Of a stretch of 64,000 nt of DNA, positions 1 to 5,714 are shown piece after piece. The stretch is from Myxococcus landrumus (GTDB lineage: Bacteria; Myxococcota; Myxococcia; Myxococcales; Myxococcaceae). Numbering within the stretch: the stretch's first letter is position 1; each line of letters opens with the position of its first letter. The notes beneath the pieces were generated by a model. The model was not told where the DNA came from. It made no database searches and was given only the letters and a program-made list of their open reading frames with translations. The translations under genes and the position numbers were made by a program. The stretch is taken from the NCBI RefSeq assembly GCF_017301635.1, contig NZ_CP071091.1:124001-188000 (forward strand), written 5' to 3'.

Positions 1-475
1 CGCGCTGCGCCGCAACTGTGAGATGCGCCTGTTGGTGGAGGACGCGCTCCAGGCGGTGCGCATGCTGCCCGAGTCGGAGGAGGTGGAGCTGCGCACGTCG
101 CTGGAGGAGAATCTCACCGTGCAGGGGGACGCGGCGCTGCTGGTGTCCGCCATCGACAACCTGGTGCGCAACGCGGTGGAGGCGGGCGCGGTGGCCAAGG
201 ACACGGGCCTGCGGCCCGCGCCGTGGGTGGTGGTGAACCTGTCGAGGGAAGGAACGGACGCGGTGCTGGTGGTGGAGGACAACGCGGGCGGGGTGGACCC
301 GAGGCTCGAGCCTCGGTTGTGGGAGCCTTTCGCGACGGGACGCGCGAAGGGCGTGGGCCTGGGTTTGCCCATGGCGCGCACGTCGGTGGAGGCTCACGGT
401 GGGAGCCTGACCTATACGCGCCGTCCCCTGGGCAGTCTCTTCACGCTGCGCCTACCCCTGGAGTCCACTTCATGA
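1..475 (+). CDS. Sensor histidine kinase, C-terminal part (5' end outside window)
   Basis: Only the ATPase end of a two-component sensor kinase is present; the reading frame is open from base 2, so the sensor and dimerisation parts lie upstream. The visible part shows the HATPase_c boxes: an N-box (DNLVRNAVEAG), a G1 box (VVEDNAGGVDP) and a G2 box (GVGLGLPMAR) followed by AHGG. It would bind ATP and phosphorylate a histidine in the missing dimerisation domain. Its TGA stop overlaps the ATG of the next gene (ATGA), so the kinase and the NtrC-type regulator are translationally coupled and almost certainly cognate. The signal it senses cannot be seen. Confidence 0.9.
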   Translation, partial: ALRRNCEMRLLVEDALQAVRMLPESEEVELRTSLEENLTVQGDAALLVSAIDNLVRNAVEAGAVAKDTGLRPAPWVVVNLSREGTDAVLVVEDNAGGVDPRLEPRLWEPFATGRAKGVGLGLPMARTSVEAHGGSLTYTRRPLGSLFTLRLPLESTS

Positions 476-1815
476 GCACCCATCTGCTGCTGGTGGACGA
501 CGACCGGACCTTCGCCTCGCTGGCGGCCACGGTGCTGCGGCACGAGGGCTTTCGCGTGACGCTGGCGCACTCGCTGCACGACGCCCGCGCGGCGCTGAGC
601 CGGCAGGCCCCGGAGGTGGTCGTGTTGGATCGCCGCCTGCCGGATGGGGACGGCATCCACTTCCTGCCGGAGCTGCGCGCGCAGTTTCCGGACACCGCGG
701 TGATGATGGTGACGGCGCACGGCGACATCGCCAGCGCGGTGGACGCCATCAAGCAGGGCGCGCGCGACTACCTGTCCAAGCCCGTGGAGCTCGACGACCT
801 GGTCCTCCGCGCGCGCCGGGCCGCCGCGGACCTCCAGCTCCACGAGCGGCTGCGTCAGGCGGAGAGCGAGTTGGGAGGTCGGCGGCGCCTCTTGCGTCCG
901 CGCGCGCCCGCCATGGTGTCCGCGCTGCAGATGATTGAGCGCATCGCCACCGCGCCGCGCAGTCCGGTGCTCATCACCGGCGAGACGGGGGCGGGCAAGG
1001 AGGTGCTCGCGAGGCACCTGCACAACGTGCAGGGAGGCCAGGGGCCCTTCGTCCACGTCAACTGCGCCGCGCTGCCATCCTCGTTGGTGGAGAGCGAGCT
1101 GTTCGGCCACGAGCGCGGCGCCTTCACGGATGCACGCGCGGCGCGACGCGGGCTGGTGGAGGTGGCCGACGGGGGCATCCTCTTCCTCGACGAGATTGGC
1201 GAACTGCCGCTGAGCCTCCAGGCCAAGCTGCTCACCTTCCTGGACCAGGGCGCCTTCCGGCGGCTGGGCGGGACGACGGAGCTGACGAGCAACGCGCGCG
1301 TGGTGACGGCCACCAACCGCGACCTCACGCGAGAGGTGGCCGAGGGCCGCTTCCGCGAGGACCTCTACTTCCGCCTCAGCGTCTTCCGCGTGGAGATTCC
1401 GCCCCTGCGTCAGCGGCGCGAGGACGTGCTGCCGCTGGCGGAGTCGCTGCTGGTGGAGTTGTGCGCGGAGCTGGGGCGCAGGCCCGTGGACTTCACCCCC
1501 GCCGCGAGGGCGCGCCTGGAGCGCTATCCCTTCCCAGGCAACGTGCGCGAGCTTCGCAACGTGCTGGAGCGCGCGCTGGTGCTCGAGCCAGGCCCCGCAC
1601 TGGAGCTTCAAGCCCTGGAGCCGAGGGGCCCGCCGGGGCCCGCCGCCGTGGACCCGGATTCCTTCGTCGTCGGGGGACCTCCGCGCGCGCTGGACGACGT
1701 GGAGCGCCTGTACGTGAAGCACGTCCTGGGGCGCCTGGAGGGCCGGCGCATGGAGGCGGCCAAGGTGCTGGGCCTGTCGTACCCCACGTTCCTCCGCAAG
1801 CTCGAGGAGTCCTGA
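472..1815 (+). CDS. NtrC-family sigma-54-dependent response regulator
   Basis: A 447-residue regulator with three domains: a receiver (residues 1-120, acidic pocket D9-D11, phospho-acceptor D53), a AAA+ sigma-54-interaction domain (about 150-380, Walker A GETGAGKE, Walker B ILFLDEIGE) and a C-terminal Fis-type helix-turn-helix (EAAKVLGLSYPTFLRKLEE). The sigma-54-contacting loop reads GAFTDA rather than the canonical GAFTGA. The ATG overlaps the kinase stop. Downstream lie three copies of a 9-bp dyad and a perfect -24/-12 promoter, so the likely target is the sulP-carbonic anhydrase operon. That target is inferred from position; the family assignment is certain. Confidence 0.93.
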   Translation: MSTHLLLVDDDRTFASLAATVLRHEGFRVTLAHSLHDARAALSRQAPEVVVLDRRLPDGDGIHFLPELRAQFPDTAVMMVTAHGDIASAVDAIKQGARDYLSKPVELDDLVLRARRAAADLQLHERLRQAESELGGRRRLLRPRAPAMVSALQMIERIATAPRSPVLITGETGAGKEVLARHLHNVQGGQGPFVHVNCAALPSSLVESELFGHERGAFTDARAARRGLVEVADGGILFLDEIGELPLSLQAKLLTFLDQGAFRRLGGTTELTSNARVVTATNRDLTREVAEGRFREDLYFRLSVFRVEIPPLRQRREDVLPLAESLLVELCAELGRRPVDFTPAARARLERYPFPGNVRELRNVLERALVLEPGPALELQALEPRGPPGPAAVDPDSFVVGGPPRALDDVERLYVKHVLGRLEGRRMEAAKVLGLSYPTFLRKLEES

Positions 1816-1846: not shown

Positions 1847-1909
1847 GCGGGCACTTCAAGTTCCTTGCTTAAATTTCTTGAAGTCCGCCGCGGGCACTTG
1901 AAGTTCCTT
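1847..1909 (+). promoter_or_regulatory. Putative enhancer (UAS): three ACTT-S-AAGT dyads within a 20-bp direct repeat
   Basis: Two 20-bp direct repeats (1847-1866 and 1890-1909) match at 19 of 20 positions and lie 43 bp apart, about four helical turns. Each contains a 9-bp dyad of the form ACTT-C/G-AAGT (1853-1861, 1896-1904). A third copy with one mismatch (TCTTGAAGT) is at 1876-1884. The array sits about 70-130 bp upstream of the -24 element at 1978, the usual distance for enhancer sites of NtrC-type activators. The adjacent regulator is the obvious candidate to bind here. Confidence 0.65.
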
Positions 1910-1976
1910 TCATTGCCCGCCACCCGTTGGAGGCCAAAGTCCCCTGTGAAATCAGTAGGTTGAGGCATTCGCCGCA

Positions 1977-1992
1977 TGGCACGAGCCTTGCC
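1977..1992 (+). promoter_or_regulatory. Sigma-54 (-24/-12) promoter
   Basis: The sequence TGGCACG-AGCC-TTGCC matches the -24/-12 consensus (TGGCACG-N4-TTGCW) at every conserved position, with GG at 1978-1979 and GC at 1990-1991 (12 bp apart). Transcription would start near 2003, about 55 bp before the sulP ATG. It follows a sigma-54 activator gene and an array of dyads. Confidence 0.75.
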
Positions 1993-2058
1993 ATGACGCG
2001 CCGCGAGACTCAGCGCGCGCCACCGTGGGGTGGCGTCTTCTCGTGGAGGTGTTTGGCG

Positions 2059-3600
2059 ATGTCGACGAGTCAAGGCAACGCGGGCTCGGCCTGGAAGTCC
2101 TGGGCCGCGGACCTGCCTGCTTCTCTGGTTGTCTTCCTGGTGGCGCTGCCCTTGTGCATGGGTATCGCGCTGGCGTCGGGTGCGCCCATCGTGTCGGGCC
2201 TCATCGCTGGCGTGGTGGGTGGCGTGGTGGTGGGAGTGCTGGGTGGCGCGCCGTTGCAGGTGAGCGGCCCCGCGGCCGGCCTGGCGGTGATGGTGTTTGG
2301 CTTCATCCAGACGATGGGCCTGGCGATGACGTGCGCGGCGGTGGCCGTCGCGGGGCTCATCCAGATGGCGTTGGGAGGGATGAAGGTCGCTCGCGCGGCG
2401 CTGGCCATCTCCCCGGCGGTGATTCACGGAATGCTCGCGGGCATCGGCATCCTCATCGTGCTGGGCCAGGTGCACATCGTGCTGGGTGGCAGTCCCCAGT
2501 CGAACGCGTGGCAGAACGTGAAGGAGCTGCCCGAGCAGGTGCTGTCGCTGCACGGGCCCGCGGCGGTGCTGGGCCTGCTGACCATCGCGTTGATGGTGGT
2601 GTGGCCGATGGTGGCCAAGGGCAAGCTGAAGCTGGTGCCCGCGCCGCTGGTGGCCGTGGTGGGCGCGTCGGCGGTGTCGGTGCTCTGGGGCGCGGACGTG
2701 GCGCGCGTGGAGCTGCCGGCCAACGTGTTCAGCAACATGCAGTGGCCGGCGCTTCCCTCCGGCAACTGGGGCCCGTTCGTGGCGGCGGTGCTGTCGCTGG
2801 CGCTGGTGGCGAGCGCGGAGTCGCTCCTGTCGGCGGTGGCCACGGACAAGATGCACACGGGGCCTCGCGCCAACCTGGACAAGGAGCTGTTCGCGCAGGG
2901 CGTGGCGAACACGGTGTCCGGGCTCGTGGGCGGTCTGCCGATTACGGGCGTCATCGTCCGCAGCGCGGCGAACATCGCGGCGGGCGCGAAGACGCGCATG
3001 TCCGCGCTGCTGCATGGCATCTGGCTGTTGTTGTTCGTGACGATGCTGGGCTCGGTGGCGGGGCTGGTGCCGCTCACGGTGCTCGCGGGCCTGCTCGTCG
3101 TCGTCGGCGCGAAGCTGGTCAACATGCACCACATCCGCGAGCTGTCGAAGCGCGGTGAGGTGGTCGTCTACGCGGCGACGGTGGCCGGCGTCGTCGGCAT
3201 CAACCTGCTGGCGGGCATTGGCCTGGGATTGCTGGTGGCCATCCTGCGGTTGTTGTGGCGGCTGGGCAGCGTGAAGGTGGACGTGACGCAGGCGAACGGG
3301 GAGCACCTGGTTCGCGTGTCGGGCTCGCTCACCTTCGTGGGTGTGCCGCGGCTGTCTTCCGCGCTCGCGCAGATTCCCTCGGGTTCGAAGGTGCGCATCG
3401 ACCTGTCGGTGGATACGCTGGACCACTCGGGCTTCGAGGCCATCGAAAGCTGGAGTGACACGTATCGCAAGACGGGCGGCTCGGTCGTCATGGAGTCGCT
3501 CGAGGAGGTGTGGGTTCGCAGTGGAACGACTCAGGCCTCGCGTTCTGTTCTCAACACTTCTGTTTCCTCCAACAAACTCGCCTCCGAAGGTGCCCCATGA
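2059..3600 (+). CDS. SulP-family anion (probably bicarbonate) transporter with STAS-like tail
   Basis: A 513-residue inner-membrane transporter with about ten or more hydrophobic segments from residue 12 onwards. It opens with a SulP N-terminal segment (SWAADLPASLVVFLVALPL), has the conserved G/A-rich first membrane helices, and ends in a cytoplasmic STAS-like region (about 430-510: LVRVSGSLTF, then IDLSVDTLDHSGFEAI). The ATG at 2059 is chosen over an upstream in-frame GTG because GGAGG lies a proper distance before it and it keeps the sigma-54 promoter intergenic. The stop overlaps the start of a beta-carbonic anhydrase gene, a pairing that points to bicarbonate rather than sulfate; the substrate remains inferred. 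Confidence 0.88.
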   Translation: MSTSQGNAGSAWKSWAADLPASLVVFLVALPLCMGIALASGAPIVSGLIAGVVGGVVVGVLGGAPLQVSGPAAGLAVMVFGFIQTMGLAMTCAAVAVAGLIQMALGGMKVARAALAISPAVIHGMLAGIGILIVLGQVHIVLGGSPQSNAWQNVKELPEQVLSLHGPAAVLGLLTIALMVVWPMVAKGKLKLVPAPLVAVVGASAVSVLWGADVARVELPANVFSNMQWPALPSGNWGPFVAAVLSLALVASAESLLSAVATDKMHTGPRANLDKELFAQGVANTVSGLVGGLPITGVIVRSAANIAAGAKTRMSALLHGIWLLLFVTMLGSVAGLVPLTVLAGLLVVVGAKLVNMHHIRELSKRGEVVVYAATVAGVVGINLLAGIGLGLLVAILRLLWRLGSVKVDVTQANGEHLVRVSGSLTFVGVPRLSSALAQIPSGSKVRIDLSVDTLDHSGFEAIESWSDTYRKTGGSVVMESLEEVWVRSGTTQASRSVLNTSVSSNKLASEGAP

Positions 3601-4340
3601 AGAAGCTCATCCGTGGACTGCTCGACTTCCAGCTCAAGGGCCGGCCCGCGTATCGGGAGACTTTCGCGCGGCTGGCGAACGGACAGAACCCTGACTGCCT
3701 CTTCATCTCGTGCTCGGACAGCCGGATGGTGCCCAACCTGCTCGTGACGACGGACCCGGGCGACCTGTTCGTGGTCCGCAACGTGGGCAACCTGGTGCCG
3801 CCCTCGGACAGCAAGGGCGTCTCCATGGGCGACCAGTCCGAGGCGGCGGCGCTCGAGTTCTCCTTGAGCAATCTGGAGGTGGAGGACCTGGTCATCTGCG
3901 GCCACTCGAGCTGCGGCGCGATGAAGGCGGTGCTCGCTGGCGGTGAGGTGCCTGGGGCGCCCAACCTCCAGTCCTGGCTGAAGCATGGGAAGGAAGCGCT
4001 GAACACCCTCAACGCGGGCAGCACGGTGGGCGAGGGCCTGGCCGAGTATGATCGGCTCTCCCAGCTCAACGTGCTCCAGCAGCTCCAGCACGTGTCGTCC
4101 TACCCCCTCGTGAAGGAGCGTGTCGCCGCCGGCAAGCTGCGGCTGCACGGCTGGTGGTTCGACATCGCGAGCGCCCAGGTCCATGTCTGGCGCCCCGGGC
4201 ATGGCCGGTTCGTCCCCATGACGGAGCTGGTGGGGGAGGCGCTGCTGCGCGAGCTGAGCGGCGACATCCTCCACCCGGGTGAGGGCACGGCCGCGAACCA
4301 GGAGGGGGGCCCCCGGCTCTCCGTGGCGGGCAGCCACTAG
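3597..4340 (+). CDS. Beta-class carbonic anhydrase
   Basis: A 247-residue zinc enzyme interconverting CO2 and bicarbonate. The beta-class residues are all present: C39, D41 and R43 in CSDSR and H103/C106 in GHSSCGAMK, giving a Cys2His zinc site with the Asp/Arg dyad. There is no signal peptide, so it acts in the cytoplasm. The ATG overlaps the SulP stop (ATGA), so the two products are made together: the transporter brings in bicarbonate and the enzyme equilibrates it with CO2, either for carboxylases or for pH control. A strong hairpin follows at 4371-4394. Confidence 0.95.
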   Translation: MKKLIRGLLDFQLKGRPAYRETFARLANGQNPDCLFISCSDSRMVPNLLVTTDPGDLFVVRNVGNLVPPSDSKGVSMGDQSEAAALEFSLSNLEVEDLVICGHSSCGAMKAVLAGGEVPGAPNLQSWLKHGKEALNTLNAGSTVGEGLAEYDRLSQLNVLQQLQHVSSYPLVKERVAAGKLRLHGWWFDIASAQVHVWRPGHGRFVPMTELVGEALLRELSGDILHPGEGTAANQEGGPRLSVAGSH

Positions 4341-4370: not shown

Positions 4371-4394
4371 GCCACGGCCCCTCGAGGCCGTGGC
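4371..4394 (+). terminator. Hairpin after the sulP-carbonic anhydrase operon
   Basis: A perfect 9-bp GC stem (GCCACGGCC / GGCCGTGGC) with a 6-nt loop lies 30 nt after the carbonic anhydrase stop and 50 nt before the next start. There is no U-tract, as is common in high-GC genomes, so it may be a weak intrinsic terminator or a 3'-end stabiliser. Confidence 0.5.
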
Positions 4395-4443: not shown

Positions 4444-5286
4444 ATGACTCCCTTCTTCTTCACGTTCGTCGTCCTGTGCTTCTCCGTGGGTGCGGGACTG
4501 TTGGGCTCGCTGCTGGGTATCGGCGGCGGGCTCATCCTCATTCCCGTACTCACCCTGCTGCTGAAGGTGGATATCCACTACGCGGTGGGGGCTTCCATCG
4601 TCTCCGTCATCGCCACCTCCAGCGGCGCGGCGGCGGCGTACGTGCGTGAGCGCATGGCGAACCTGCGCGTCGCCATGTTCCTGGAGCTGGCCACCACCGC
4701 GGGCGCGCTCACCGGGGCCTTTCTCTCCGGCCGGGTGGGCGGGCGCGGGGTGTACCTCGTCTTCGGCGCCGTCATGGCGTACTCGGCGCTGGTGATGCTG
4801 CGCCGGATGAACGGCGCCGACGATGCGCCCGTGCCCGAGGATGCGCTGGCGGACCGGCTGGCGCTGCACGGTGGCTACTGGGACGAGTCCACGGGCCGCG
4901 AGGTGCGCTACCGCGTCACCCGTCCCCTGGCGGGACTGGGATTGATGTACGTGGCGGGCACGGTGAGCGGCATGTTGGGCATCGGCTCGGGCGCGCTGAA
5001 GGTGCCGGCCATGGACCTGACGATGCGGCTGCCGCTGAAGGTGTCCACGGCCACCAGCAACTTCATGATTGGCGTGACGGCGGCGGCGAGCGCGGGCGTG
5101 TACTTCGCGCGAGGCCACATCGACCCGTTCATCGCCGGGCCCGTGTGCGTGGGCGTCACGTTGGGCGCGTGGCTGGGCTCGCGCCATCTCATGACGCGGG
5201 TGAATGCCCTGTGGCTGCGCGTGCTCTTCGTGGGCGTGTTGTTGTGGGTCGCGTTCGAGATGCTGCACAAGGGGTGGACGTCATGA
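4444..5286 (+). CDS. TauE/SafE (DUF81) family sulfite/anion permease
   Basis: A 280-residue polytopic membrane protein (about eight hydrophobic helices) in two similar halves. The first half has a glycine-rich GSLLGIGGGLILIPVL and the second an equivalent SGMLGIGSGALKVPAMD, the internal duplication typical of TauE/SafE proteins. Members export or import small sulfur anions or organic acids; the substrate here is unknown. The ATG at 4444 is the first plausible start, with an AGGAAGG purine tract about 16 nt upstream. It overlaps the following DUF1634 gene by ATGA, a common pairing for this family. Confidence 0.85.
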   Translation: MTPFFFTFVVLCFSVGAGLLGSLLGIGGGLILIPVLTLLLKVDIHYAVGASIVSVIATSSGAAAAYVRERMANLRVAMFLELATTAGALTGAFLSGRVGGRGVYLVFGAVMAYSALVMLRRMNGADDAPVPEDALADRLALHGGYWDESTGREVRYRVTRPLAGLGLMYVAGTVSGMLGIGSGALKVPAMDLTMRLPLKVSTATSNFMIGVTAAASAGVYFARGHIDPFIAGPVCVGVTLGAWLGSRHLMTRVNALWLRVLFVGVLLWVAFEMLHKGWTS

Positions 5287-5714
5287 AGGAGCCGCCCGTG
5301 CCCCGCGTGTCGCCACCGCCCGAGCCCGAGGCCGTCCCGCTGGTGCCGGAGCTGCTCATCAGCGACCTCTTGCGCCACGGTGTCGTCGCGAGCCTGTCGC
5401 TGGTGACGCTGGGCACGGTGGTGACGTTCTTCCGCCACCCCGACTATCTCGTGTCCTCGGAGGCGCTGGAGCGCCTCACCGCGCCACACCCCGTTCCGCA
5501 TGGGCTGGCGGAGGTGGTGGCGGGAGCGCTGGCCGCGCGCGGCCAGTCGTTCGTCATGGCGGGGCTCCTGGTGATGATGGCCGTGCCGGTGATGCGCGTG
5601 GCGCTGTCGCTGCTCATCTTCCGGCAGCAGAAGGACAAGGTCTTCGTGGCCATCACCACCGCGGTGCTGGTGCTGCTCCTGGTGTCCTTCCTGGTGGGCG
5701 CGGCGGAGGGCTGA
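5283..5714 (+). CDS. DUF1634 family membrane protein
   Basis: A 143-residue protein with a proline-rich N-terminus and three predicted membrane segments (about residues 32-52, 85-105 and 118-140). It matches the DUF1634 proteins that are regularly encoded next to TauE/SafE permeases, and here it is translationally coupled to one (4-nt overlap). It is probably an accessory subunit of the permease; its biochemical role is unknown. It ends only 3 bp from the end of the convergent sixA-like gene, leaving no room for a terminator between them. Confidence 0.75.
   Translation: MKEPPVPRVSPPPEPEAVPLVPELLISDLLRHGVVASLSLVTLGTVVTFFRHPDYLVSSEALERLTAPHPVPHGLAEVVAGALAARGQSFVMAGLLVMMAVPVMRVALSLLIFRQQKDKVFVAITTAVLVLLLVSFLVGAAEG

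Follow-up and report, generated by a model that had tools for sequence, protein, structure and literature searches.

Heterotrophs need bicarbonate for their carboxylases, and the regulation of bicarbonate supply has been little described. The locus considered here raises the question of whether the genes for a SulP-type transporter and a β-carbonic anhydrase (CA) are governed by a two-component, sigma-54-dependent switch of their own and, if so, what that switch serves. It lies within the window, by which we mean the whole 64-kb stretch of DNA that was analysed (G000:C1:124001-188000), in a Myxococcus-like genome comprising a single contig of 10.37 Mb. We favour the view, with a probability of roughly 0.68, that a dedicated two-component sigma-54 switch drives sulP-CA, most likely for bicarbonate import. 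In the proposed mechanism, a membrane-bound kinase, its sensor periplasmic and dCache-like, would phosphorylate its overlapping partner, an NtrC-family activator (EBP), which would then bind two or three 19-bp operators, whose centres lie ∼98, 128 and 141 bp before the predicted transcription start, and remodel the sigma-54 polymerase at a −24/−12 promoter. The sulP and CA genes would share a single transcript; the transporter is most likely a bicarbonate importer, and the anhydrase would bring the bicarbonate into equilibrium with CO2 for the carboxylases of anaplerosis and biosynthesis. Within this scheme, the gene order, operator, promoter and catalytic residues are supported by the comparative data.

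The features of the locus are collected in Table 1. The original prediction called the switch complete, which is nearly right: the kinase gene starts 1.2 kb upstream of the window edge, and a terminator is not established. The 4-nt ATGA overlaps, proposed to couple the kinase gene to the EBP gene and sulP to CA, are both in place, and the EBP-sulP intergenic region spans 243 bp. In the region examined upstream of the kinase, there is neither an operator half-site nor a promoter and, hence, no sign of autoregulation at that point. A hairpin does follow CA, where the operon was thought to end, but it has no T-run and its fold is only a little better than those of shuffled sequences; therefore, it is not taken as the demonstrated end of the operon. 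Two genes on the same strand start 103 nt downstream of CA: these encode a TauE/SafE-type permease and a DUF1634 protein (4444-5714), homologues of which follow CA in the genus Myxococcus only among the loci inspected.

Table 1. Positions of the features of the locus, in window coordinates
Feature	Position	Strand	Remarks
Sensor histidine kinase gene, 3' part	1..475	+	558 aa in full; start L033:2799
NtrC-type response regulator/sigma-54 EBP	472..1815	+	Response_reg, Sigma54_activat and HTH_8 over cut-off
Distal 19-bp operator ACTTCAAGTTCCTTGCTTA	1853..1871	+	15.7 bits, rank 2 in 64 kb
Middle 19-bp operator TGCTTAAATTTCTTGAAGT	1866..1884	+	13.1 bits, rank 3 in 64 kb
Proximal 19-bp operator ACTTGAAGTTCCTTTCATT	1896..1914	+	19.5 bits, rank 1 in 64 kb
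−24/−12 sigma-54 promoter TGGCACGAGCCTTGC	1977..1991	+	predicted +1 at 2003; core in 43/43 orthologous regions
Leader hairpin, promoter-to-start-codon interval	2017..2036	+	fold z −1.87; putative function
sulP, anion transporter with weak C-terminal STAS-like region	2059..3600	+	Sulfate_transp 221.1 bits
β-Carbonic anhydrase (CA) gene	3597..4340	+	Pro_CA 154.2 bits
9-bp GC-rich hairpin 3' of CA, no T-run	4371..4394	+	fold versus shuffles z −1.66

The activator, its proposed operator and the promoter

The EBP has the make-up of an NtrC-type activator: a receiver, an AAA+ sigma-54 interaction domain with a GAFTGA-type loop and a C-terminal Fis-type HTH, all of which exceed the Pfam cut-offs (Response_reg 94.5 bits, Sigma54_activat 209.7 and HTH_8 25.6). 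The loop itself reads GAFTDA and is kept across 44 loci, except for GSFTDA in two of them. An aspartate or glutamate occupies the altered position in five of the 45 matching loops of this genome, with GAFTDA also present in other EBPs; moreover, GAFTDA has been listed as an activation-compatible variant in Desulfovibrio (PMC4641369). The genome carries one rpoN gene.

The intergenic region had been read as presenting three 9-bp dyads inside a 20-bp direct repeat. The repeat is present (1847-1866 and 1890-1909, with one mismatch) and two of the dyads are perfect (ACTTCAAGT at 1853 and ACTTGAAGT at 1896), but the middle one, TCTTGAAGT, matches at eight of nine positions and falls outside the repeat. 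Conservation was assessed by alignment of this region across the Myxococcaceae; it holds for the promoter and for a 19-bp operator, but not for the 9-bp dyad, which as such is absent from most orthologues. Perfect copies of ACTTSAAGT were found only in the window's sub-group of the genus Myxococcus, and it was rejected as the binding unit. When a motif search was started from the alignment, the conserved unit emerged as a 19-bp dyad, ACTTCAAG-N3-CTTGAAGT, of which the 9-bp dyads are half-sites. When scored with a matrix built from other genera alone, the three sites in the window occupy the first three ranks across 64 kb, the next best position reaching 3.8 bits; in each of 43 loci, the sum of the top two operators was equalled by none of 200 dinucleotide shuffles. 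In most loci, one operator begins 68-72 bp, and a second 99-104 bp, upstream of the −24 element. Within the window's clade (L003-L006), the operators begin at −81, −111 and −124, that is about one helical turn further out, and from this displacement we infer that the spacing fits a helical-phase constraint.

The −24/−12 element is as predicted, with GG-N10-GC set in a TGGCACG-N4-TTGC-like context. The pattern GGCAYR-N4-TTGC is found in all 43 orthologous intergenic regions, where the mean consensus frequency is 0.98 at the core positions, a value that is partly by construction given that the regions were anchored on this very pattern, compared with 0.41 for the spacer bases and 0.47 for those upstream. 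On the basis of a match in every region combined with the drift of the neighbouring bases, the element is taken to be under selection.

The matrix scan covered the 64-kb window, and genome-wide scope was provided by pattern searches. The sequence TGGCACGNNNNTTGC has two copies in the 10.4-Mb genome, and its reversed control one; the second exact −24/−12 match has no operator upstream. Paired 9-bp dyads occur at this place only (the reversed control pattern once), and the promoter with a spaced operator core also occurs once (control, none). This latter search thus returned no further targets in the genome itself, although the pattern is of limited sensitivity, having missed true sites in three relatives (G062, G077 and G038). 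Subject to the same caveat, the restriction of both patterns to this one place suggests that the EBP may be dedicated to the sulP-CA operon.

The kinase-EBP-sulP-CA order is intact in all Myxococcaceae loci inspected at full length, and the EBP, sulP and CA genes occur together in every fetched locus that has a SulP orthologue (∼70% identity or more). Conversely, the SulP and EBP orthologues are missing together in G079, G041 and G042. Provided that the operator is taken as the 19-bp unit and not the 9-bp dyad, this comparative evidence lends strong support to the proposed control of sulP-CA by sigma-54 and the EBP. Orthologous loci of Myxococcus species share this type of operator and the promoter; a dedicated switch of this kind, family-wide and with a defined operator, would make the regulation of bicarbonate supply testable in those species. 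Among 80 relatives of SulP, mostly from Actinobacteria, CA lies nearby in 66, and an adjacent kinase with a full EBP is seen in three myxobacterial loci only, the other EBP matches being short, receiver-sized stretches. A candidate for kinase/EBP control outside the Myxococcaceae (G113) was dismissed as coincidence: a kinase and an EBP lie near sulP, and there is no matching promoter. Its EBP-sulP gap of ∼1.15 kb seems, on inspection by eye, to contain a LysR-type gene in divergent orientation.

The sensor kinase and a related switch on metal-efflux operons

The kinase is conserved in the orthologous loci, and its HisKA and HATPase_c domains exceed the Pfam cut-offs. Its best curated models are AtoS and ZraS, and it scores far below their equivalog cut-offs. 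The pair therefore resembles two-component systems of the AtoSC, ZraSR and DctBD type in combining a kinase and a receiver-AAA+-Fis activator with upstream dyads and a −24/−12 promoter, but it differs from them in its operator and target operon. The sensor gives a weak match to dCache_1 (24.8 bits, below the gathering score of 45). A model of the kinase, of moderate confidence, has two successive mixed α/β units flanked by two long helices; a fold search of this model against the PDB matched mainly kinase cores, and a sensor-only model built without an alignment was discarded at a pLDDT of 37. The idea that inorganic carbon (CO2 or bicarbonate) is the signal finds no support here: given the weak dCache_1 match and the homology of the sensor to that of kinases linked to CzcCBA-type metal efflux, it is not accepted as established.

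These latter kinases belong to a second switch. A further group of EBPs, 59-68% identical to the first and preceded by a homologous kinase, is widespread in the Myxococcaceae, and some genomes have both groups; the two groups separate in a tree, the root of which is unsure owing to a too distant outgroup. Of 20 of these paralogous loci, ten have a CzcC-like gene downstream and ten do not. Where a CzcC-like reading frame lies directly 3' (judged by eye), the operator is present in all ten, and none of 200 shuffles scored as high, albeit narrowly for L190; before other DNA, it is present in none of the ten, 8-166 of 200 shuffles scoring as high. The right half-site of the CzcC-linked operators is more often CTTTCAG, and a −24/−12 element is clear in several of the loci, with a clean match missing at several. 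The three pumps tested (L180, L181 and L193) are of the CusA/CzcA heavy-metal RND family (957-1006 bits versus a cut-off of 701), such that the target of this switch would be heavy-metal efflux. Additionally, in G063, there is one promoter-operator match before a TolC/CzcC-like gene. The CzcC-linked operator loci are L180, L181, L184, L185, L190 and L193-L197, all from other Myxococcaceae. It appears, then, that one regulatory cassette has been re-used for different target genes, and comparison of the two sensors, those of the SulP-CA and CzcCBA-linked kinases, offers a handle on the signal.

Such kinship gives some substance to an alternative that we consider possible but unlikely, in which the switch and promoter operate as described and what the kinase detects is a metal ion, pH or some other periplasmic ligand, with SulP-CA serving a stress response (pH balance or carbonate chemistry). 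It would be in keeping with the homologous kinases, the EBP identities and the shared operator type before CzcC-like genes, together with the family of the three pumps; however, the two groups of kinases are divergent in their sensors, their targets differ, and SulP relatives elsewhere are paired with CA or DabA without this kinase/EBP pair. In evolutionary terms, and on an equally tentative footing, a kinase/activator/operator family would have been duplicated and wired both to CzcCBA-type efflux and to SulP-CA, the SulP-CA branch still answering periplasmic stress (metal or pH) and not CO2. If true, this would tie inorganic-carbon chemistry to metal stress.

Transporter substrate and the remaining alternatives

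The assignment of bicarbonate as the substrate depends on gene context. SulP is a clear member of its family (Sulfate_transp 221.1 bits versus a cut-off of 23.2), and it falls far below the cut-offs of the curated subfamilies: DauA (169.8/614 bits), which is the best of these models, sulP (154/380) and BicA (150.5/880). Glu254 and Arg301 are present in 44 of 44 loci. At the equivalent sites, the aligned sequence of the BicA structure has aspartate and glycine, and the acidic residue in BicA forms part of the Na+ site; thus, BicA-type coupling is not indicated by these residues. An arginine at the Arg301 site is common to other SLC26 carriers, for example, prestin. The protein would consequently resemble BicA, the cyanobacterial SulP bicarbonate transporter, in its fold and proposed substrate, but differ from it in subfamily score and at both of these sites. 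For the anhydrase, which has a Pro_CA domain, the zinc and catalytic residues (Cys39, Asp41, Arg43, His103 and Cys106) are retained in 44 of 44 loci.

In G038, G004 and G090, SulP paralogues with 50-52% identity to the present SulP adjoin dabA, which in G038 and G004 is followed by a dabB-like gene. The genome of the window has a sulP-dabA-dabB locus of its own, with a more distant SulP, and a second β-CA besides that of the operon; hence, the sulP-CA operon is not its sole inorganic-carbon system. Bicarbonate transport has been proposed for SulP-CA pairs and fusions (Felce and Saier 2004, as cited in PMC3924187); the present case shares with these the coupling of a SulP carrier to CA, as do the 66 relatives noted above, but the two proteins are encoded by separate, overlapping genes, and elsewhere such pairs were not seen under a sigma-54 two-component switch of their own. 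That the family name alone does not reveal the substrate is illustrated by the two SulPs of Thiomicrospira pelophila: the one encoded next to a carboxysome locus has experimental support as a DIC transporter, whereas the second did not rescue the growth of CA-less Escherichia coli (PMC12628692). On balance, a role for SulP-CA in inorganic carbon is likely, with the adjacency of CA and the SulP paralogues beside dabA arguing for the predicted supply function, and the lack of a curated subfamily and of BicA-like residues at the two aligned sites weighing against it.

The same features bear on a second alternative, which we rate as somewhat less likely still: SulP would carry sulfate or a C4-dicarboxylate under a kinase/EBP pair akin to DctBD or to a sulfur-source regulator, with CA merely supporting carboxylation or pH balance. 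DauA as the best model, even at a score far below cut-off, and the resemblance of Glu254 and Arg301 to general SulP/SLC26 carriers rather than to BicA would suit this reading, as would the TauE-type gene that comes next in Myxococcus. The coupling to CA and the SulP paralogues beside DabA speak against it, and the TauE gene is not kept with the unit outside that genus. Moreover, the CysT sulfate permease exceeds its cut-off in five of six genomes, including that of the window; the exception, the Corallococcus-group genome G018, has the SulP-CA switch and no CysT above cut-off, which would favour a sulfate carrier, although sulfate uptake there may proceed through another carrier.

Finally, it is very improbable that the dyads and −24/−12 element are matches due to chance or shared ancestry and that sulP is transcribed otherwise: consensus matches do arise by chance in a 10-Mb genome, as the two exact copies and the single reversed control illustrate, but the core persists in every orthologous region while the spacer and flanks have diverged, the operator was validated across genera, and the paralogous loci carry it only where a CzcC-like gene follows. 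We therefore return to bicarbonate import under a dedicated switch as the preferred reading. All of its parts are of known kinds. In the open-access papers searched on SulP and CA with sigma-54, RpoN or a response regulator, we found no description of such control; nor were the combination, the operator or the sister wiring to metal efflux found described there.

Leader hairpin and neighbouring loci

The sulP leader (2003-2058) contains a GC-rich hairpin between the promoter and the start codon, which is predicted in most loci. The Corallococcus hairpin covers the ribosome-binding site and has a z-score of −3.1 (for one sequence); three of its 17 pairs are changed on both sides, a modest covariation equalled by 21 of 500 shuffles. 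The support for the Myxococcus hairpin is weaker. The hairpin may add a translational layer.

SulP is linked to the DAB inorganic-carbon complex in several genera: the sulP-dabA loci lie at L200:4057-10458 (in the genome of the window), L201:3505-8856, L206:4375-9768 and L204:1298-5243, and most of them continue into a dabB-like gene. Just before the window, a gene for a degradative-type HMG-CoA reductase (L033:1348-2739) ends 59 nt 5' of the kinase start; not seen in the other loci, it recurs in this position in the M. stipitatus-like L138.
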